Shown here: one piece after another, positions 15,029-51,442 of the stretch | Layout of the letters: each line of letters opens with the position of its first letter | Position numbering within the stretch: position 1 is the first letter of the stretch | Assembly: GCA_020634875.1 (NCBI GenBank) | Contig: JACKAX010000012.1 | Coordinates: 1-64,000 of the forward strand | Reading direction: 5' to 3' | Length of the DNA: 64,000 nucleotides | Origin: Anaerolineales bacterium | GTDB lineage: Bacteria; Chloroflexota; Anaerolineae; Anaerolineales; JABWBV01 | Made by a program: the position numbers and the translations under genes | The notes under the pieces: generated by a model | Databases searched by the model: none | What the model was told of the DNA's origin: nothing | What the model saw: only the letters and a program-made list of their open reading frames with translations

Positions 15029-17236
15029 ATGCCCCTAAAACGATTCCCCAGCCTTATTTTCGTTTCTCTAACCTTGCTCATTTTTCTGGGCGGTGGTCGT
15101 GCGGAGGCCCAACCTGCTACGCCCCTTGCCCTCCCCTATCCCATCCTCTTCGTCACTCAAATCCCCGTTACCGCCGACTTCACCACCATCGGCTCCACGT
15201 TTGGCAATCACAAAGCGGCGATGAGCGATGTCGCCCGCGGCGGCGATCTTTGGATTCGCTACCCCGATGGCACGCTCAAAAATCTCACCCAGGCTGCGGG
15301 GTACGGGATGGAAGGCTTTCAGGGGGCGAACGCGATCGCAGTCCGCGACCCCTCAGTCTCGTGGGATGGGACCAAAGCCGTTTTCAGTATGGTCATCGGC
15401 GCACCTACCCAGCAATACCAGGTGCAAACCTACTACTGGCAACTTTACGAAATCACCGGTCTCGGTCCCACCGACACCCCTATCATTACCAAAGTCCCCA
15501 ACCAACCCGCCAATTTCAACAACATCAGCCCCATTTACGGGACCGATGGCCGGATCATCTTCACCACCGACCGCCCGCGCAATGGCGCGCTCCACCTCTA
15601 TCCCCAGCGCGATGAATACGAACTCGCCCCCACCGTCAGCGGCCTTTGGAGCCTCAACCCTGCCACGGGCGCTTTGCAACTCCTCAACCATGCCCCCTCG
15701 GGCGACTTTACCCCGACCATTGACAGCTACGGGCGCGTCATCTTCACCCAATGGGATCATCTCCAACGCGACCAGCAAGCCGATGCCGACGCCAATTACG
15801 GCACCGGCCAAAACTGTGACAGCGGCAACCAATACGGCACCTTCAACTACTCCGACGAAACCGCCAACGCCCAAATCCTCGACGACCGCACCGAAGTCTT
15901 TCCCGAACCCCGCAGTTGCCGAGGAGACCTGCTTGCCGGAACTAATCTCAACGGGCATAGCTTCAACCAGTTCTTTCCCTGGACGATCAATGAAGACGGC
16001 ACCAATGGTGAAGTCCTCAATCACCTGGGTCGCCATGATCTGCACGGCTATATCCCCGCGGCCATCAATGACGATCCCAACATCTTTGAGTATTATGGAC
16101 AGCTTTCCCGCTTCAATCAAAATAGTCTCGAAAACTTCTTCCAGGTCAAAGAAACTCCCCTCACCCCCGGCCTTTACTACGGCGTAGACGCCCCCGAATT
16201 TGCCACCCACGCCTCCGGGCAAATCGTCAGTATCTACGCCCCACCCTCGCTCGATGCTGATCACATCTCGGTGACCTATGTCACCGCGCCCAATACTACC
16301 CCCGGTCATTTCCGCGAACCCGTCCCCCTCTCCGACGGCACACTGATCGCCGTTCATGCCCCCACCTCCGAAGTCGAACAAGGCGGCTACCCTCATAACT
16401 CTACCTACGCCTTCCGTCTCAAAACCCTCACCCTTTCTGGCAGCTACTACCTTGCCGACCAGCCCCTCACGAGCGGCATTGTCGAAACCATCTCCTACTG
16501 GAGTCCTGACGAAATGATTACCTATACCGGGCCGCTTTGGGAACTGAACCCGGTCGAAGTCCGCCCACGTACCGTTCCCAATCCTGACCCGTTCAACCTC
16601 CCTCCCCCCGAACAGCAAATCTTTGACCAGGCCGGAGTCAACCTGACCGATCTTCAACTCTATCTCCACGCGAATAATCTTGCCCTCGCCGTCAGCCGCG
16701 ACGTCACCACCCGCGACGACTTCGACTTTCAACAACCATACAACCTCCATATCCCCGGCGGCGTGCAAACGATTGGCGATCCCGGCACGATTTACGATAT
16801 CGCCTTCATGCAGTTCTTCCAGGCAGAACAATTACGGGGATGGTTTGGCTGTTGCGGAGATGACCCTCTCCCTGGGCGGCGTGTCCTCGCCCAACCGATG
16901 CATGATGTCAATAATCCTGTTTCCTCCGGTCCGGAGGGGAGTGTCGTTCTCGCGCCTGATGGCTCGATGGCGGCGTTTGTCCCCGCGCAAAGGGCAATGA
17001 CCTGGCAGTTAACCGACCCTGATGGACAAGGTGTTGTTCGCGAACGGTACTGGATTACCTTCCAACCCGGCGAAATCCGCATCTGCACCTCCTGCCACGG
17101 CTTGAGCCAATACGATCAAGCAGGAGACACTGCCCCGACCAATCCGCCCCAGGCCTTGTTGACCTTGTTGGAATACTGGAAATTTATCGCTGACCCGCCT
17201 TACCGTACCTATTTGCCCGTCACTGTCTCTCCCTAA
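15029..17236 (+). CDS. Secreted c-type haem protein related to hydrazine-synthase-alpha-like family
   Basis: A 735-residue exported protein with an N-terminal signal peptide (cleavage near 'GRAEA-QPA'). Most of the chain has beta-propeller-like features: 'MSDVARGGDLWIRYPDGTLKNLTQ', 'YGTDGRIIFTTDRP', 'DSYGRVIFTQWDH'. The C-terminal region carries one covalent-haem motif, C686-T-S-C689-H690 in 'IRICTSCHG', followed by 'PTNPPQAL'. This arrangement resembles the HZS-alpha-like family, which is widespread outside anammox bacteria; hydrazine synthesis is not implied, as no HZS beta/gamma partner is visible. The protein ends 'YRTYLPVTVSP'. It probably takes part in extracytoplasmic electron transfer or redox catalysis. 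Confidence 0.75.
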   Translation: MPLKRFPSLIFVSLTLLIFLGGGRAEAQPATPLALPYPILFVTQIPVTADFTTIGSTFGNHKAAMSDVARGGDLWIRYPDGTLKNLTQAAGYGMEGFQGANAIAVRDPSVSWDGTKAVFSMVIGAPTQQYQVQTYYWQLYEITGLGPTDTPIITKVPNQPANFNNISPIYGTDGRIIFTTDRPRNGALHLYPQRDEYELAPTVSGLWSLNPATGALQLLNHAPSGDFTPTIDSYGRVIFTQWDHLQRDQQADADANYGTGQNCDSGNQYGTFNYSDETANAQILDDRTEVFPEPRSCRGDLLAGTNLNGHSFNQFFPWTINEDGTNGEVLNHLGRHDLHGYIPAAINDDPNIFEYYGQLSRFNQNSLENFFQVKETPLTPGLYYGVDAPEFATHASGQIVSIYAPPSLDADHISVTYVTAPNTTPGHFREPVPLSDGTLIAVHAPTSEVEQGGYPHNSTYAFRLKTLTLSGSYYLADQPLTSGIVETISYWSPDEMITYTGPLWELNPVEVRPRTVPNPDPFNLPPPEQQIFDQAGVNLTDLQLYLHANNLALAVSRDVTTRDDFDFQQPYNLHIPGGVQTIGDPGTIYDIAFMQFFQAEQLRGWFGCCGDDPLPGRRVLAQPMHDVNNPVSSGPEGSVVLAPDGSMAAFVPAQRAMTWQLTDPDGQGVVRERYWITFQPGEIRICTSCHGLSQYDQAGDTAPTNPPQALLTLLEYWKFIADPPYRTYLPVTVSP

Positions 17237-27096: not shown

Positions 27097-28761
27097 CTAC
27101 AAACTCATCGCACACCCATCCGCGCGGGGATCGCTCCCGCCCCAGAGGACACCGTTCCCCTCGCGGCGGATCACCTGCCCGCGTCCGAACAGCGCCCGCC
27201 CGTGCCCGGTCACGGGGGCGATGTTGTGCCCGCGCGCGGCCAATTCCGCGAGGGTGTCGAACCCGATCCCCTCTTCCAACGCCACGCGTCCGCCCGCTTC
27301 TCCATCATCAATACAAAACCGGGGCCGGTCCAGCGCCGCCTGCGGGTCCAGTGCATCGTCAATCAACCCGACCGCCACTTGCATGTGTCCCTGCGGCTGC
27401 ATGAACCCGCCCATGACGCCGTAGGAGGCAAATAATTCTTCACCACGTAGGGGCGTTGCATGCAACGCCCCTACCGCAGAAGATTTGGTAATCATCGCCG
27501 GAATAATCGTGTGGTAGGGACGTTTTCCGGGTGCGAGGGCGTTGGGGTGTGTGGGGTCGAGGGTGAAGTTATGACCGCGGTTTTGGAGGGTGAAGCCCCA
27601 GCCTTTGGGGACGATGCCTGTGCCAAAGCCCATGTAATTGCTGTTGATGAACGAACACGCGTTGCCCTCGCCATCTACGACGGAGAGGTACACGGTGTCG
27701 GAAGAAGACGTCGGCGTGCCGTGGACTTGATCGAGGGTGGCGCGGGTGGGATGGATAAGCGCGCGGCGTTCGGCGGCGTAGGTTTTGGAGAGGAGGTCTT
27801 CGAGGGGGGCGGGGTTAAATTTCGGGTCGGCGACGTACCAACGGGTGTCGGCAAAGGCCAGGCGCATGGCTTCGATCATCAGGTGGAAACGTTGGGTGGA
27901 CAGGGGCGCGTGTTCGGTCAGGTCAAAGCCTTCGAGGAGGTTGAGGGCGAGGAGGGCGGCCAAACCCTGTCCGTTCGGGGGACATTCCCAGATGCGGTAG
28001 CCGCGATAGGTGGTGGAGATGGGAGTATCCCAAGTGGAGGTGTGGGTTGCGAGGTCGTCCAGGGACATGACTCCGCCCGCGTCGCGTAAAACGCGGACGA
28101 TGGCTTCGGCGATGGGGCCGCGGTAGTAGGCATCTTTCCCACCCTCGGCAATCAGACGGAAGGTACGCGCGAGGCCGGGGTTGCGGAAAATTTCGCCCGC
28201 GCGGGGGGCGCGTCCATCAAGCGTTAGTTCGTGGCCATTGGGGGCGTGGGCGAGTTGGCGTTCGGCTCCGCGTGCCCAGTAATGGGCAGTGATGGGGGCG
28301 ACGGGGAAACCTTCTTCGGCAAGGCGAATGGCGGGCGCGAGGACATCCGCGAGGGGCAGGCGTCCGTGGCGTGCGACCAGATCGCACCAGCCCGCACACG
28401 CGCCGGGGACGGTGACGGTGTGAGGGTGGTAGGGGTCTGGAATTGTCAATTGTGAATGGTCAATTGACAATTGATCATTGAGCAGTTCAAGGGTCAAAGC
28501 TCCAGGGGCACGGCCGGAGGCGTTGAGGGCGGTGACTTGCCCAGTTTTGGCGTCAAAATAGAGGGCAAACGCATCCCCGCCGAGGCCGGTGGAGGTGGGT
28601 TCGGTGACGTTGAGGGCGGCGGCGGTGGCGATGGCGGCATCGGCGGCGTTACCGCCTTTGGACAGGATTTCCAGCCCGGCGGCAACGGCTAGCGGTTGGG
28701 AGGTGGCGACAATGCCACGGGTGGAGAGGACGGGGGAGCGGCGGGAGGTGAAGGGGAGCAT
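27097..28761 (-). CDS. ggt: Gamma-glutamyltransferase with two palindrome-derived in-frame insertions
   Basis: A 554-residue Ntn hydrolase of the gamma-glutamyltranspeptidase family. 'GGNAADAAIATAAALNVTEP' near the N-terminus is a family hallmark. The autoprocessing nucleophile is the Thr in 'SSSDTVYLSVVDGEGNACS', and 'YHTIIPAMI' and 'GVMGGFMQPQGHMQVAVGLI' mark the small subunit. No signal peptide is evident. Two translated stretches are encoded by palindromic DNA: about residues 97-108 ('DQLSIDHSQLTI') and about 425-442 ('VGALHATPLRGEE'). Both fall where the family normally has short loops, so activity may be retained. It hydrolyses or transfers gamma-glutamyl groups, as from glutathione. 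Confidence 0.93.
   Translation of the reverse strand: MLPFTSRRSPVLSTRGIVATSQPLAVAAGLEILSKGGNAADAAIATAAALNVTEPTSTGLGGDAFALYFDAKTGQVTALNASGRAPGALTLELLNDQLSIDHSQLTIPDPYHPHTVTVPGACAGWCDLVARHGRLPLADVLAPAIRLAEEGFPVAPITAHYWARGAERQLAHAPNGHELTLDGRAPRAGEIFRNPGLARTFRLIAEGGKDAYYRGPIAEAIVRVLRDAGGVMSLDDLATHTSTWDTPISTTYRGYRIWECPPNGQGLAALLALNLLEGFDLTEHAPLSTQRFHLMIEAMRLAFADTRWYVADPKFNPAPLEDLLSKTYAAERRALIHPTRATLDQVHGTPTSSSDTVYLSVVDGEGNACSFINSNYMGFGTGIVPKGWGFTLQNRGHNFTLDPTHPNALAPGKRPYHTIIPAMITKSSAVGALHATPLRGEELFASYGVMGGFMQPQGHMQVAVGLIDDALDPQAALDRPRFCIDDGEAGGRVALEEGIGFDTLAELAARGHNIAPVTGHGRALFGRGQVIRREGNGVLWGGSDPRADGCAMSL
27447..27474. repeat. Perfect 28-bp palindrome inside ggt
   Basis: GTAGGGGCGTTGCA and its exact complement (axis 27460/27461) are read in frame within ggt. 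Palindromes beginning GTAGGGGCG are a known style of dispersed repeat in filamentous and environmental bacteria, normally intergenic. Confidence 0.75.
28441..28472. repeat. 12-bp-arm inverted repeat inside ggt
   Basis: AATTGTCAATTG (28441-28452) and CAATTGACAATT (28461-28472) are exact inverted copies around an 8-base loop. The words ATTGTCA/ATTGACA are short-repeat style, and the stretch is translated in ggt. Confidence 0.7.
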
Positions 28762-37610: not shown

Positions 37611-37686
37611 AAAACACAAAGGATACGAAGGTTCACAAAGGAAAAAAATTTTAAATCCTTCGTGTTCCTTTGTGTCCTTCGTGTTT
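37611..37686. repeat. Palindromic short-word repeat (ACACAAAGG/ACACGAAGG)
   Basis: Left: AACACAAAGGATACGAAGG and TTCACAAAGG. Right: the inverted series CCTTCGTG, TTCCTTTGTG, TCCTTCGTGTTT. The centre is AAAAAAATTTTAAAT. It fills the whole gap between the convergent mutase and LLM genes and overlaps the LLM stop codon by two bases. It could serve as a two-way terminator. Confidence 0.65.
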
Positions 37687-38512
37687 AAAGCGCTGGGGGC
37701 CCCATTTCTAGTCGTTCCAATACCTGCTCCAAACCTTTACCCCACATCGATTCTATCCACCATGTCGCGCCTGCGTCGGCAAAGGGTTGGATAATTTCAG
37801 CCGGTTTTTCCGGTTCGTGCGCGGGGGTTTGTCCGTCTACGATGATGTCAAGCGGCGCGCTTCCTTTTTGGGTTGCATCCAACCAGGTACGCATCTCACG
37901 CACTTGTGGGGACAAGATCGGTTTCGGGCCGGGCGGTCCTTCTAGGATATTGGGGATCAGACCATCATAACGGAGGACACGGCGCATGGATTTTTCGCTA
38001 AACCATCCGCCAACGACCCAGGTGGGGATGTGGGGGATGCCGTTGCGGGTTTGGATTGGCGCGGGGGCGGGATTGAAGGCGTTTTCTTTGAGCGTGTAGT
38101 GTTTGCCCTGGAAGTTGAACGGTTGTCCTGCCCATAACCCGTTGATGATCTCCAACCCTTCATCCAGCCGTTCGGCGCGGGTACGGCGGTCGGTGGGCAG
38201 GGCGAAATTGGCGAATCCGGTGTCCGGCGCGCCTAGGCCTACCGCGAGGATCACGCGTCCGTTTGAAAGGGCGTCCAGCGTCGCGGTTTCGGCGGCGAGT
38301 TTCCAGGGGGAGAGAACGGGGAGGGGGGTGAGCATGGTGCCCAGACGAAGGCGTTCCGTGCGAGCGGCGATGTGGGCGAGTGTTACCCACGGATCGGTAC
38401 TCCAGACGGATTCGTACATGAAAAACGCATCCCATCCGGCTTTTTCGGCGAGGAGGGCGTATTCAACAGCCTTGAGAGGATCAGCAGCAGGATAAACGAA
38501 GCCAAATTTCAT
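37685..38512 (-). CDS. LLM-class flavin-dependent oxidoreductase
   Basis: A 275-residue bacterial-luciferase-like (F420- or FMN-dependent) enzyme. The start at 38512 follows AAGGAG and gives 'MKFGFVYPAADPLKAVEYAL'. Family features are 'AEKAGWDAFFMYESVWSTDPW' and 'RLRLGTMLTPLPVLSPWKLA', with 'GRVILAVGLGAPDTGF' for cofactor phosphate binding. It probably catalyses a flavin- or deazaflavin-dependent oxidation; the substrate is unknown. The PPOX-type gene at the window start would also fit an F420-using organism, but this is not proven. Confidence 0.88.
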   Translation of the reverse strand: MKFGFVYPAADPLKAVEYALLAEKAGWDAFFMYESVWSTDPWVTLAHIAARTERLRLGTMLTPLPVLSPWKLAAETATLDALSNGRVILAVGLGAPDTGFANFALPTDRRTRAERLDEGLEIINGLWAGQPFNFQGKHYTLKENAFNPAPAPIQTRNGIPHIPTWVVGGWFSEKSMRRVLRYDGLIPNILEGPPGPKPILSPQVREMRTWLDATQKGSAPLDIIVDGQTPAHEPEKPAEIIQPFADAGATWWIESMWGKGLEQVLERLEMGPPAL

Positions 38513-41180: not shown

Positions 41181-41933
41181 ATGACCACCATTCAAACCCA
41201 ATTCCTCACAAAAATCTATGGCTCCGGTGCTACAGCTGTTACGGCGCTGGATCATGTTAGCCTGTCGATCAAGCCCGGCGAATTCGTCGCCATCATGGGG
41301 CCAAGCGGGTGTGGCAAATCCACGCTGCTCCATCTCCTGGGTGGGCTGGACAAGCCCACCGAAGGCAAGGTTCTCCTGGAAGGAACGCCAATAGAAACGA
41401 TGTCCGACGATAAACTGACTGAACTCCGCCGCCGCAAGATGGGTTTCATCTTTCAATTCTTCAACCTGATCCCGGTGTTGACGGCTGTCGAAAATGCAGC
41501 CTTACCCATCACCCTCGATGGAGCTAAACCCGCAGATGCCAAAGCCAGAGCGACCGAGTGGCTCACCCGATTTGGGTTGGGTGACCGCCTGAACAACCGC
41601 CCCGATCAGCTTTCTGGCGGCCAACAGCAGCGTGTCGCCATCGCCCGCGCCCTCGTTGCCGAACCGACCCTGATCCTCGCAGACGAACCTACCGGCAATC
41701 TTGATACCAGTTCCGGCGATGAAATTGCCAGTTTGCTTCGCAAGGTTTCGCAAGAATTCAATCGCACCGTCGTAATGGTCACACATGATCCCCGCATCGC
41801 TGCCTATGCGGACCGGATCATCTTCCTGAAAGATGGCAAGATGATTGACGAAACCGCTTTCACCCGAACGGGAAGCGATAACGGAAAAAATGCGAATGTC
41901 GTTGCGGAAAAGATGAAAGCGATAGGGGATTGA
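41181..41933 (+). CDS. ABC transporter ATP-binding protein (MacB/LolD type)
   Basis: A 250-residue ABC ATPase with Walker A 'GPSGCGKST', Q-loop '[17 protein letters not shown]', signature '[15 protein letters not shown]', Walker B 'LILADEPTG' and H-loop 'VVMVTHDPR'. The C-terminal 20-25 residues extend beyond the core. It powers the 851-residue permease at 42498, but the two are separated by a 564-bp gap carrying an opposite-strand gene in a palindromic cassette, an unusual interruption for a pair that is normally adjacent. A ribosome binding site AAGGAA precedes the start. Confidence 0.95.
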
Positions 41934-41934
41934 G

Positions 41935-42035
41935 GGATTGAGGAATTGAGTGATTGGGTGATTGAGTGAATGAGTGATTGAAGAATTTTCAATCACTCAT
42001 TCACTCAATCACCCAATCAAAAAATCACTCATTGT
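41935..42035. repeat. Left heptamer palindrome flanking the four-helix-bundle gene
   Basis: Drifting copies of GATTGAG/GAGTGATT form an almost perfect hairpin: 32-base arms 41951-41982 and 41988-42019 are exact inverted copies around a 5-base loop (GAATT). Additional partial copies extend on both sides (GATTGAGGAATTGAG left, AATCACTCATT right). It starts 2 bases after the ATPase stop and runs into the end of the reversed gene. Confidence 0.9.
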
Positions 42036-42376
42036 CTTGCGGTTTTACGAGAGGATGACATGATTTTCATAATTTGCTCTGCTTCATCCAGTAAATCTGT
42101 CAATAGTTCAGGCTTCACTAGCCCCGCATCGCGGATAAGCTCAAGCCAGAAAACACTTTCATCCGCCTCCTCAACAACAATGGAAAGTTTAGAAATAAAC
42201 ATGGCTTTGTTTTGCGCCCGACAGACCGCCCGATAATTCGCGCCAACCGAAGTCGCTGATCGCAAAAGTTGTTTTCCAAGCACCTCAGACACATTTGATT
42301 TTGGCAATGATTGAACCAACTTAATTACCCGCAATGAAAACTTCCGTGTCCTCGCCCGCAATTCATCAGGATCCAT
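42029..42376 (-). CDS. Four-helix-bundle protein (S23 / 23S rRNA intervening-sequence protein family)
   Basis: A 115-residue all-helical protein. 'LGKQLLRSATSVGANYRAVCRAQ' and 'KLSIVVEEADESVFWLELI' are hallmarks of the family first known from proteins encoded inside 23S rRNA intervening sequences in Leptospira, which also includes the Avd accessory protein of diversity-generating retroelements. The fold forms a basic pentamer that can bind nucleic acid. Here it lies opposite to the ABC operon that it interrupts and is flanked by related heptamer palindromes, giving a discrete unit of about 560 bp. No reverse transcriptase or rRNA is nearby. Confidence 0.93.
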   Translation of the reverse strand: MDPDELRARTRKFSLRVIKLVQSLPKSNVSEVLGKQLLRSATSVGANYRAVCRAQNKAMFISKLSIVVEEADESVFWLELIRDAGLVKPELLTDLLDEAEQIMKIMSSSRKTARQ

Positions 42377-42389
42377 TTTTACCTCCGAT

Positions 42390-42487
42390 TATTCAGTGAT
42401 TGTGTGATTGAGAGATTGAGTGATTGCAATTATAAATCACACAATCACTCATTCAAAAAATCACACAATCACCAAATCACCCAATTA
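42390..42487. repeat. Right heptamer palindrome flanking the four-helix-bundle gene
   Basis: Copies of GTGATTG/GAGATTGA on the left (GTGATTGTGTGATTGAGAG, ending near 42427) are inverted as CAATCACTCATTC and AATCACACAATCAC further right, giving arms of about 31 bases with a few mismatches. Words match the left flank (41935-42035). It ends 10 bases before the permease start, so the permease ribosome binding site (AAAGAAA, weak) lies at the cassette edge. Confidence 0.85.
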
Positions 42488-42497
42488 AAGAAATCCC

Positions 42498-45053
42498 ATG
42501 AACCTCCAATTCACCCTTGCGCTCCGCTACCTCGGCGGACGCAGACTACGAACCTTTTTGACCACCCTCGCCATTGTTTTTGGCGTTTTGCTCATCTTTG
42601 GCATGAACACTATCATGCCTGCGTTTTTAGCTGCTTTCACAACAAACATTAAAGCTGCTGCAGGACAGGTGGATGCGACTATCACCAACAAAGCTGGAGA
42701 ATCCTTCCCTGAGACGGTGGCGAATGATGTCGCCAGCGTGGATGGGGTTGTCTCCGTCAGCGCTACATTGGAACGAGCAATTAGCTTACCTGTGGATTAC
42801 TTCGATCAAGACCCCGCGACCCCTGACCGGATTTCTACCGTTTCCCTCGTGGGCGTCACCCCGGACGTTTACCGTTCCATGACCACCGTCAACGTGATCG
42901 AAGGACGTTATCTGGAAGCGAACGATGGTGCGAATGCCGTCATCGCCCAATCCCTGGCGGAACCTGGCAACCTCAAACTGGGCGACACCCTCTCCATCCC
43001 CACCCCGACCGGAACGGCGGAATTGACCATCGTCGGCATCACTCCCCAACGGCTGATTCCCGGCAACGAGGAAGTGCTTGTCACGCTGTCCGAAGCACAA
43101 ACGCTCCTCGATGCCGCGGGCAAAATCAACGTGATTGACGCGAACTTCAACACCGTAGATGCCACGCGCCGCACCGAGATCGAAAACGCCATCACGGCCA
43201 AACTGGGCAAAGCATACACCATCGGTGCCCTGCAAGCGGGCGCGGAAATCCTGCAAAATATCGGTGTCGCGCAGTCCATCTTCAACCTGTTGGGCGGGCT
43301 GGGGCTGTTGATGGGTGGCTTCATCATCTTCAACACCTTCCGCACCATCATCGCCGAACGCCGCCGCGACATCGGAATGCTCCGCGCGGTGGGGGCCAGC
43401 CGCAGCACGATCACCTGGCTAATTCTGATGGAAGGGGTGATTCAAGGCGTCATCGGTACCGCGGTGGGCATTTTGTTCGGCTATGGCTTTGGCGCAATGG
43501 CATTGAACGCGGTTGGTTCTATTGGACAACAATTTTTGAACGTGCAAGTTGGAAAACCCGCTGTAACCCCCGGCCTGTTGCTCGTTTCCATCATAATGGG
43601 GGTGGGAATTACCATTTTGGCGGGCGTGATCCCCGCGCGCGCGGCGAGCCGCATCACCCCGTTGGAGGCGTTGCGTCCCACAGTGGCCGAAGTATCGCTC
43701 AAGCGGATGGCAGGGTTTGGCTTTTGGGCTGGAGTGGTGATGATTGCTCTCGCGGTCGGGGCACTCCTTTCAGGCAATGCAGGATTGATCAGCCTGGGTG
43801 CGTTTTTGTTTACCCTGGGGCTGATCGTGATCGCCCCCGCGCTGGTGAACCCGATTGCGAATATCTTCGGCACTCTGACCGCGTACCTTTTCGCCCGGCA
43901 GGGGACGGCCCAACTCGCCGAGGGCAACCTTTCCCGCCAACCATCTCGCGCCGCGATCACCGCCTCCACGACGATGATCGCCCTGGCAATCCTGGTCATG
44001 GTCGGCACAATTCTGTCGAGCATCTCGCAGACCTTTACCAATATGCTGAGAAATAGCTTGTCTAGCGACTATCTCCTGGTTCCGCCTTCTGTATCCCTAT
44101 GGGGGTCGGACGTAGGCGCAAACCCGGAACTCGCGAACGATTTGCGTAAAGTTGACGGGGTGCAGGTGGTCAGCAGTTTGCGCTTCGCCGCGACGCAGAT
44201 CAACGAGGTGGCGGTTGGCTTGCTTGGCATCACGCCGGAAGATTATGTGCAAACGAGTGGCCTGACCTTCATGGAGGGGGATGAGGTCGCCGCGTTCCAA
44301 GCGATGGAATCGGGGCGGGCGATGATCGTCAACGGCATTCTGGCCTCGGGCGCGGGCATCAAGGTCGGAGATGAAGTCAGCCTCCTGACCCCTACGGGCG
44401 AGCAAACGTACAAAATTGTCGCGCTGGCCTCCGACTATTTGAACGCTAAGACCACGACCGGGTACATCTCCCAGGCGAATATGGCCACGGACTTTGGCCG
44501 CACGGAGGATGTCTTCATCCAACTAAACGTGAAAGACGGCGTGGATATCCCTGCTGTGGAAGCGGGCATCAAGAAAGCGATGGCCCAGTACCCGCAGTTC
44601 CGGCTGGTGTCGGGGCAGGAGTACCTGGACCAGAACATTGGTCTGTTCGATGCGATTTTTGTCGGTTTCTATGCTATGCTGGTGTTTCTGTCGATCCCGT
44701 CACTGATTGCGATGATCAATACGTTGGCGATTGGTGTGATCGAACGCACGCGCGAAATCGGGATGCTCCGGGCTGTCGGCGCGACGCGCAGACAGGTTCG
44801 CACGATTATCCTGGCGGAGGCGTTGATCCTTGCCGCGATTGGTACGGCGTTTGGGTTGCTTTCCGGCTTGTATCTGGGGGTGATGGCAGTGAAATCGTTT
44901 GCGGCGCTCGGCTTCCCGATTGAGTATCTGTTCCCCGCAAATAGTCTGATTGCCGCCGCGGCAGGGGGGCTGATCTTCGGCGTGATCGCGGCGATTATCC
45001 CCGCGCGGCAGGCGGCAAAGATGAATGTGGTAGCGGCGTTGCGATTTGAGTAA
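42498..45053 (+). CDS. Two-domain MacB/FtsX-type ABC transporter permease
   Basis: An 851-residue permease with two FtsX-type units. The first helix (about 22-40) is followed by an extracytoplasmic MacB_PCD domain (45-235), helices at about 260-400 with 'AERRRDIGMLRAVGASRSTI' and 'PARAASRITPLEALRP', a second start helix near 485, a second PCD-like domain (515-690), and final helices with 'IERTREIGMLRAVGATRRQV' ending 'PARQAAKMNVVAALRFE'. The duplication means one polypeptide supplies both transmembrane halves. Partner ATPase at 41181. A terminator follows. Confidence 0.95.
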   Translation: MNLQFTLALRYLGGRRLRTFLTTLAIVFGVLLIFGMNTIMPAFLAAFTTNIKAAAGQVDATITNKAGESFPETVANDVASVDGVVSVSATLERAISLPVDYFDQDPATPDRISTVSLVGVTPDVYRSMTTVNVIEGRYLEANDGANAVIAQSLAEPGNLKLGDTLSIPTPTGTAELTIVGITPQRLIPGNEEVLVTLSEAQTLLDAAGKINVIDANFNTVDATRRTEIENAITAKLGKAYTIGALQAGAEILQNIGVAQSIFNLLGGLGLLMGGFIIFNTFRTIIAERRRDIGMLRAVGASRSTITWLILMEGVIQGVIGTAVGILFGYGFGAMALNAVGSIGQQFLNVQVGKPAVTPGLLLVSIIMGVGITILAGVIPARAASRITPLEALRPTVAEVSLKRMAGFGFWAGVVMIALAVGALLSGNAGLISLGAFLFTLGLIVIAPALVNPIANIFGTLTAYLFARQGTAQLAEGNLSRQPSRAAITASTTMIALAILVMVGTILSSISQTFTNMLRNSLSSDYLLVPPSVSLWGSDVGANPELANDLRKVDGVQVVSSLRFAATQINEVAVGLLGITPEDYVQTSGLTFMEGDEVAAFQAMESGRAMIVNGILASGAGIKVGDEVSLLTPTGEQTYKIVALASDYLNAKTTTGYISQANMATDFGRTEDVFIQLNVKDGVDIPAVEAGIKKAMAQYPQFRLVSGQEYLDQNIGLFDAIFVGFYAMLVFLSIPSLIAMINTLAIGVIERTREIGMLRAVGATRRQVRTIILAEALILAAIGTAFGLLSGLYLGVMAVKSFAALGFPIEYLFPANSLIAAAAGGLIFGVIAAIIPARQAAKMNVVAALRFE

Positions 45054-51199: not shown

Positions 51200-51336
51200 A
51201 AGAATGGCTCTTCCGTTTGGAACGGGAAATTTGGTTTAATCCCGTCTAGGACTGTCACGTTCACAGTGAACTCCTATTACTCGTAACGCTATCGATAAGA
51301 AGTCGTCTTTATGGGGCAATCGTATATGAACTTTGC

Positions 51337-51430
51337 ATGTCATTGCGAGGGGTGCTTTTGACCCCGAAGCAATCTCCCTGCCCGAACTTGGGGGATTGCT
51401 TCGCTCCGAAGACTACGCTCGCAATGACAT
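51337..51430. repeat. Interspersed palindromic element with ATGTCATTGCGAG ends
   Basis: ATGTCATTGCGAG (51337-51349) is inverted at 51418-51430. Nested inside, CGAAGCAATC and GATTGCTTCG also pair. It is a well-known style of dispersed non-coding element and is related to 461-570. It lies in the gap 51200-51442 between the convergent kinase and WYL genes. Nothing else was seen there except an AT-rich stretch just after the kinase. Confidence 0.75.
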
Positions 51431-51442
51431 ATATTAACGGTT

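Follow-up and report, generated by a model that had tools for sequence, protein, structure and literature searches.

An S23/IVP four-helix-bundle gene between inverted arms of octamer repeats in an ABC transporter operon of an Anaerolineales bacterium: a candidate copy of a widespread repeat-associated element

Introduction

S23-family genes reside in 23S rRNA intervening sequences. In the window, which is the whole analysed stretch of 64,000 nucleotides (contig JACKAX010000012.1 of an Anaerolineales bacterium), such a gene is located between the ATPase and permease genes of an ABC transporter and has palindromic repeats on both sides. The locus raises the question of what kind of unit this is, and what ties the repeats to the gene.

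REP/RAYT elements are known as intergenic palindromes linked with a gene co-evolving with them. Tandem repeats are represented by the heptanucleotides of Calothrix, known as STRR. According to PMC4692102, bacteria have an excess of tandem heptamer repeats, which in 2015 were said to lack detailed study; Rehm and others mention the Calothrix heptanucleotides there and describe GGGAATC heptamers of Xanthomonas and GGGGATT heptamers of Nostoc. Heptamer arrays of Beggiatoaceae are described in the available part of PMC4679880. The terms ‘S23’ and ‘helix bundle’ are absent from PMC4692102, as are ‘S23’ and ‘four helix’ from PMC4679880.

The 23S rRNA intervening sequence of Coxiella burnetii contains an S23 ORF, described as decaying, a 28-bp terminal stem and tandem heptamers GACAGAT, the number of which varies between strains, and is excised by RNase III (PMC4990558, available part). 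In the same part of this source, S23 proteins are given as pentamers, the structure of one is said to be known from X. campestris, and S23/IVP proteins are described as lacking any known function. Avd, a protein of diversity-generating retroelements, is described as homologous to PF05635 proteins (PMC10053308, available part).

The locus in the window

The locus consists of the following parts.

41181..41933, plus strand: ABC ATPase, host gene and upstream neighbour, with orthologs in relatives; its last codons, GAT TGA, double as the first array unit
41926..41987, no strand: left palindrome, outer arm, degenerate octamers GATTGAGT
41988..42031, no strand: left palindrome, inner arm, complementary octamers TCAATCAC, containing the S23 stop codon
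42029..42376, minus strand: S23/IVP four-helix-bundle gene, 115 aa, intact (PF05635, 63.5 bits at a cut-off of 33.8; TIGR02436, 88.2 bits at a cut-off of 24)
42382..42386, minus strand: Shine–Dalgarno-like GGAGG, 5 nt ahead of the S23 start codon, read from the sequence
42391..42426, no strand: right palindrome, arm adjoining the S23 start, octamers ATTGAGTG
42429..42456, minus strand: promoter-like TTGAAT-16-TATAAT inside the right palindrome, 10/12 match, weak
42435..42485, no strand: right palindrome, outer arm, octamers AATCACAC, ending 12 nt short of the permease start
42498..45053, plus strand: MacB/FtsX permease, host gene and downstream neighbour

The first-pass annotation had described a reversed S23/IVP-type gene splitting an ABC ATPase/permease pair. 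Domain profiles confirmed both the gene and the split, identifying the ATPase and the permease, with 564 bases between them, as parts of a MacB/FtsX-type ABC transporter, to which S23 is antisense. The left array starts within the ATPase stop codon (..ATA GGG GAT TGA GG GATTGAGG..), and the S23 stop codon, 42029–42031, falls inside the same array. Two promoter-like sites were found in the S23 region, at 0.9 expected by shuffling. No terminator-like site was found at the element, no terminal inverted repeats beyond the arrays or target-site duplication were seen by eye at the site, an Rfam search of the window gave no match at gathering score, and none of 59 candidate stretches was confirmed in the viral contig scan.

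The domain scan of the window covered ORFs of at least 230 aa plus S23; the E-value limit was 1e-5, relaxed to 1e-3 for the ATPase and permease genes. The 32 long, largely non-overlapping ORFs gave no match to a reverse transcriptase or transposase domain, in agreement with the earlier statement that no reverse transcriptase is present. The absence of an RVT domain from these ORFs distinguishes the locus from diversity-generating retroelements.

The repeats had been read as heptamers; the period scan and the spacing gave a period of 8, and this reading was dropped. Units of the GATTGAGT type oppose units of the TCAATCAC type in palindromes of drifting octamers on both sides of S23. The left hairpin, earlier described as having 32-bp perfect arms, indeed has a stem of 32 bp without mismatch and a loop of 5 nt; since the units differ among themselves, drift in one left arm is mirrored in the other. 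Each side folds separately, with RNA folding z-scores of −11.7 (left) and −7.3 (right), and 0/200 shuffles fold as well. The outer arms, 41937–41993 and 42429–42485, can also pair across S23 (57 nt, 74% complementary). With as many as 3 mismatches allowed, a 15-mer of the repeat has 18 occurrences in the window, all of them within 41926–42480 (mean of shuffles 1.4, maximum 6).

S23/IVP proteins form a very large family, in which 7995 of 7999 scored candidates were significant. The window protein had been called basic, and its pI is 9.46; a pI above 8 was obtained for 83 of 142 S23 cores. A PDB comparison at E ≤ 0.01 gave a single relative, 2rld, which has 5 chains. The nearest named relative, 85% identical, belongs to an Anaerolineaceae bacterium (locus L001 of genome G001; L-numbers denote loci and G-numbers genomes of this survey). 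Comparison with L001 gave a dN/dS of 0.045, a rough ratio given the dS of 2.6, and comparison with L002 was saturated. By the L001 value the window protein is under strong constraint, unlike the ORF of the Coxiella intervening sequence, described as decaying in the available part of PMC4990558.

Several other features of the window were recorded. An S23-less heptamer array of the AATTGTC type, palindromic by eye, is located at 28441–28484. Repeats TCCTTCGTGT with a period of 9–10, palindromic by eye, are found at 37656–37685 and about 37615–37690, beside a gene for a luciferase-like monooxygenase. The intergenic stretch 51331–51441 forms a strong hairpin of the GCAATC...GATTGC type that may be a further dispersed repeat in this genome, and a similar sequence was seen upstream of the ATPase in L162. 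The 735-aa protein encoded at 15029–17236 has an unexpected match to the middle domain of the hydrazine synthase alpha subunit (39.8 bits, cut-off 26.6).

Orthologous transporter sites

Permease relatives were searched for in 120 genomes of the family of G001, and the 23 best loci, L151–L173, were inspected; leaving out the partial L173 gave 22 ATPase–permease pairs, in one of which (L166) the permease start is ambiguous. S23 is present between the two genes in two pairs (G001 and G002), with proteins 85% and 79% identical to that of the window. Octamer repeats lie beside the gene in both L001 and L002, and relatives with S23 at this site and without repeats, which the first-pass annotation had named as evidence against a cassette, were not found among the 22. 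The arm scores, as defined below, are 15 for L001 and 36 for L002.

The annotation had also proposed a search for empty sites, and orthologous pairs without S23 do exist. In the closest relative found, L151, with a permease 74% identical, the gap between ATPase and permease is 1 bp, and it is at most 9 bp in 7 of the 22 relatives. The window unit appears, from this comparison of sites, to have been inserted here or lost elsewhere. The last codons of the L151 ATPase (GGAGAC TAG) resemble a ribosome-binding site for the permease; the counterpart in the window, 41921–41933, lies about 565 bp ahead of the start of the permease, and nothing that clearly replaces it was seen.

Among the other 13 of the 22 pairs, several hold S23-less repeats of 7–8 bases at the same place, with different units. 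On DNA folding, the repeat of L161 forms a clear hairpin (z −4.3, 0/200 shuffles) and the GATT octamers of L157 a fair one (z −2.5, 2/200 shuffles); the repeats of L155 and L153 fold no better than chance (13 and 32 of 200 shuffles), and the CCCCCAAT octamers of L159 give no hairpin. Octamers CTAGGAGA in L167, L168 and L170 seem by eye to have expanded from the end of the ATPase gene itself; the borders of these arrays are vague. Pieces matching S23 (24 and 26 residues) were found upstream of the ATPase in L157 and L162.

Inverted arms around S23 genes in other genomes

A scan of species genomes with the protein alignment yielded 509 S23 relatives, the best 80 of which form the 80-locus set. 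The arm score compares the 200 bases preceding the gene with the reverse-complemented 200 bases that follow it. Gene borders were taken from the profile and set by hand at six loci (L025, L026, L034, L053, L059, L072), with none excluded; the use of ORF ends as borders cuts into the right arm, and only 47/80 loci then score at least 20, instead of 67/80.

Arm scores of at least 20 were found at 67 of these best 80 loci of 509, compared with 28 of 1195 control ORFs, i.e. other ORFs of the same loci, including a second S23 gene (L062), and 9 of 800 random boxes; 13 loci of the set, L001 among them, score below 20. The scoring of S23 flanks for palindromic repeats, suggested in the first-pass annotation, thus revealed strong enrichment of matched arms. 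The top-scoring 60 PF05635 hits of other genomes have such arms in 26 cases (3/277 boxes), and among 97 further distinct S23 genes, with copy families removed, 72 have arms of at least 18 and 53 of at least 20.

The array scan, stricter than the arm score, detected an array at 43 of the best 80 loci of 509. All 66 arrays within 200 bp of S23 at these loci have a period of 7 (46) or 8 (20), in a scan of periods 5–10, and their density beside S23 is 2.06 per kb, 33 times the 0.06 per kb measured over the remainder of these loci. The 74 tree members, drawn from the same best 80, span 8 phyla by record titles, where some bins may be mixed; 19 phylum changes were counted on the tree, the branch support of which is weak (minimum 7, shuffled mean 42).

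Matching, polarity and co-variation of arms

The mean score of a locus's own left and right arms is 25.3 in the best-80 set, versus 13.9 ± 0.5 for right arms shuffled among loci (maximum of 5000 shuffles, 15.7). The comparison was repeated within six genomes on 74 sampled elements (G019, 10/10; G003, 11/22; G022, 12/14; G024, 15/22; G107, 13/22; G117, 13/15): own arms score 22.9 (n = 74) versus 11.8 for other pairings (n = 854), and each genome lies beyond its 5000 shuffles. Left and right arms correspond inside each element, and those of separate elements in the same genome do not. Of 14 groups of loci that share a site, 10 have arms matching better within the locus than across species, one shows no difference, and in three the cross-species match is the better one; shared S23 sites show long vertical persistence.

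The arms have a fixed polarity. Among 69 loci of the best-80 set with arms of at least 18, GATT exceeds AATC on the arm at the 5′ side of S23 in 58, the reverse holds in 2, neither in 8, and one is tied. In a wider set, G exceeds C in the 5′ arm of 59 of 72 elements (4/4, 26/30 and 29/38).

Arm similarity co-varies with protein identity (Mantel r 0.49; maximum of 999 shuffles 0.12) over 132 distinct elements, after removal of duplicates, copy families and pairs with related flanks, which kept 8570 of 8646 pairs. This overall value rests largely on the GATT clade versus the rest: among the other subfamilies alone, r is 0.14 and does not exceed the best shuffle (0.16). Inside the set of the best 80 of 509 loci, r is 0.25 (shuffle maximum 0.12). 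GATT is kept between proteins from different phyla that are 50–61% identical to the window S23, and other letters of the unit change at shared sites (L024 versus L053, L039 versus L048 and L052). Co-inheritance explains part of the co-variation.

Arrays in genomes with and without S23

Of 120 genomes in the family of G001, 106 have a PF05635 score above the cut-off. In this family, one array of period 7 or 8 was found in 20 regions of 11 S23-free genomes (255 kb readable; 0.39 per 100 kb), versus 24 in 20 regions of 10 S23-rich genomes (388 kb; 6.2 per 100 kb), at least one of them beside S23; the regions, taken from contig starts, are not random, since some contigs of both groups came from earlier hit lists. 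The corresponding numbers are 14 arrays in 167 kb (S23-free) versus 36 in 200 kb (S23-rich) for the cyanobacterial order of G012, 0 in 180 kb versus 4 in 200 kb for the family of Mucilaginibacter G007, and 0 in 152 kb versus 13 in 200 kb for the planctomycete order of G003, where 12 of the 13 are from one genome. In these comparisons, which ignore kinship, arrays are strongly linked to S23 at the genome level in the family of G001, and the three other groups show a trend or an uneven link.

In the family of G001, 33 S23-less arrays were compared with S23 flanks and with control segments located 700–900 bp off S23: 27 reach a score of at least 24 with a flank, and 8 match the controls; the flank score is higher than the control score in 30 of the 33, with one tie. 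The S23 of the same genome gives the best match for 11 of 28 arrays among five genomes (5.6 expected); this preference is weak, and the reading of S23-less arrays as copies of the resident element of their own genome was rejected. The GATT octamer pattern alone was found in 17 of 120 genomes, where some cases are GATT microsatellites. In L241 (G033, contig C42, 1–9000, the contig of L053), several arrays of GGATTG octamers occupy consecutive gene junctions within about 4.6 kb, and one S23 gene is present. The legend to a figure in a CRISPR clustering survey (PMC10910872) lists ‘23S rRNA IVP’ as a domain, and S23 arrays were possibly mistaken there for CRISPR-like repeats.

Copies and genomic neighbourhood

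The 20 searched genomes behind the S23 loci contain 3 to 22 S23 matches each, and 14 control genomes contain none. The genome of the planctomycete Neorhodopirellula pilleata (L015, G003) contains seven copies of the element and two decayed ones at different sites; the seven have common outer ends, namely CGTTC on both sides in five, CGTTA on both sides in one and CATTC/CGTTC in one. Eleven near-identical S23 copies are located at different sites of the cyanobacterial genome G201, with an arm of 3 or 4 GGTTTCA repeats, varying by copy. Nine of the 11 aligned copies, together with a longer copy, L372, start with TAACTGACGTTACGCA, the inverse of which is present at four readable right ends (L364, L367, L370, L372); the G201 cassette thus sits in a terminal-inverted-repeat unit, and another enzyme may move these copies. 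Ten of the 11 S23 genes in G201 are interrupted by another dispersed repeat, and the repeat truncating the ORFs in L361 and L363–L371 itself has heptamers of the AGGCAAA type.

The first-pass annotation had proposed a small mobile or maintained unit. S23-free orthologous operons, the enrichment of arms and the amplified copies in other genomes support such a unit and suggest mobility, as do the octamer repeats beside the gene in both relatives that share the site. A need for reverse transcriptase was considered and rejected: RVT_1 was not found in the S23-rich genomes G001, G019, G024, G044 and G051, an absence that is provisional, since these are drafts.

Neighbours, taken as the longest nearby ORFs and not as curated genes, were resolved at 64 loci with arms (5 others unresolved). 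The stop codon of the left gene faces the 5′ arm in 53 of the 64, and in 32 of these 53 the arm starts at most 15 nt from it. The orientation classes are 37 >S>, 16 >S<, 7 <S< and 4 <S>, and the window element has the minority orientation <S<. A tRNA scan of 40 loci, five or six of which were chosen for their visible tRNAs, showed one element flanked by tRNA genes in each of L027 and L110 and two in L114, with tRNA genes on the strand opposite to S23 in L110 and L114; L007 and L012 abut tRNA-SeC, and L115 adjoins tRNA-Cys. A table for Flavobacterium columnare (PMC5524665, available part) has a four-helix-bundle gene between those of guanylate kinase and nicotinate-nucleotide adenylyltransferase, a placement that fits the junction pattern and says nothing on arms.

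Discussion

The chance is nearly even, in our estimation, that the window locus is one copy of a widespread selfish element, in which an S23 gene lies between inverted arms and encodes a protein matched to its own repeats. This reading draws on the enrichment of arms, their matching within elements, the period of 7 or 8, the polarity, the co-variation and the arrays linked to S23, and further on the vacant sites, the amplified copies, the constrained protein and the stop codon facing the 5′ arm. Points against it are the co-variation residing mainly in the GATT clade, the 13 of 80 loci with low arm scores, the smaller number of loci (43 of 80) with an array in the stricter scan, the mixed result at shared sites, the uneven link of arrays to S23, the weak preference of S23-less arrays for the S23 of their own genome and the terminal-inverted-repeat unit of G201.

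In such an element, a four-helix-bundle S23/IVP gene would travel between two inverted arms of degenerate tandem repeats of 7 or 8 bases. Recognition by the S23 protein of its own repeats or hairpins is inferred from the sequences: an oligomer might bind the repeat in the form of DNA or of a hairpin and so help to copy or spread it. Copying at the DNA level would keep both arms alike, by a presumed mirroring. Units with S23 would be the complete form, and S23-less arrays would be forms served in trans or relicts. The units would settle where they cause little harm, beside stop codons at the borders between genes and within some tRNA operons. A broader proposal, that S23/IVP is the protein half of the array element and that each subfamily recognises its own 7–8-base repeat and drives array growth, mirroring and spread, is possible and should be regarded as rather doubtful.

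It is unlikely that the locus represents an intervening sequence settled in mRNA operons, in which the arms would fold, RNase III would excise the S23 RNA and selection would act on the sense stem. The anatomy of the Coxiella 23S rRNA intervening sequence matches (PMC4990558, available part), the window hairpins are very stable, and most elements (the 53 of 64) share the direction of the upstream gene, some of them in tRNA operons. A sense-RNA stem under selection was nevertheless rejected, since arm mismatches show no excess of sense G-U over A-C: 79 versus 96 in the best 80 of 509 loci and, with the opposite lean, 110 versus 148 in other elements (p 0.02), or 144 versus 192 in the same elements with duplicates removed and another gap cost (p 0.01). 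This leaves the sense-RNA reading unsupported and makes copying at the DNA level more likely. S23 is, moreover, antisense to the window operon and opposite to the tRNA genes of L110 and L114, and the two sides of the window gene fold each on its own.

That arrays and S23 are two unrelated things sharing tolerant gaps, with arrays arising by slippage and strand switching, is improbable and disfavoured. Over-representation of heptamers has been attributed to slippage (PMC4692102, available part), many arrays occur without S23, and those of L161, L167, L168 and L170 look by eye like expansions of the stop-codon sequence of the host; against this, arms match inside an element and not between elements of one genome, the polarity is fixed, the repeat follows the protein clade, and the array density beside S23 far exceeds that over the remainder of these loci. 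Still less probable is S23 as a passenger of ordinary transposons, with the arms as part of transposon ends: the G201 copies with TAACTGACGTTACGCA ends and the seven G003 copies with common outer ends would fit, whereas no common ends past the arrays were apparent at most loci, as viewed without system in the flanks of 40 of the 80, and the long ORFs of the window contain no transposase domain. That the palindromes are hairpins serving a resident gene in regulation or termination is highly improbable and disfavoured. Strong hairpins do flank the gene on either side; no terminator-like site was found, however, and repeat families and S23-less arrays would be left unexplained.

The selfish S23-array element can be compared with known systems. 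The REP/RAYT elements are similar in that intergenic palindromes are tied to a co-varying gene; S23 arrays differ in being tandem and in having a four-helix-bundle gene between the arms, not a RAYT transposase. The arrays of Xanthomonas, Nostoc and Beggiatoaceae are likewise intergenic tandem units of 7 bases, some of them inverted (PMC4692102, PMC4679880, available parts). The anatomical resemblance to the Coxiella intervening sequence is close: in both, an S23 gene lies between terminal inverted repeats, with heptamers of variable number upstream of the gene in Coxiella and octamers in the window (PMC4990558, available part). The window element is not a 23S rRNA intervening sequence, since it is not in rRNA; it lies between protein genes, antisense to the operon, and, unlike the Coxiella sequence, has an intact gene with a GGAGG ribosome site, in a family without a general sense-stem signal. 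A search of the open-licence literature found no paper linking non-ribosomal S23 genes to such arms.

Matching arms around S23 genes in many bacteria suggest a widespread, little-noticed mobile or self-maintaining DNA unit. The link between S23 and the repeats provides a candidate ligand for the S23 protein and a candidate maker for the repeats, and it would place the rRNA-fragmenting 23S rRNA intervening sequence in a wider class. If the broader proposal is true, intergenic heptamer arrays of several phyla would be accounted for by S23/IVP proteins, and 23S rRNA intervening sequences, S23 cassettes of operons and perhaps the ancestor of Avd would be variants of one system.
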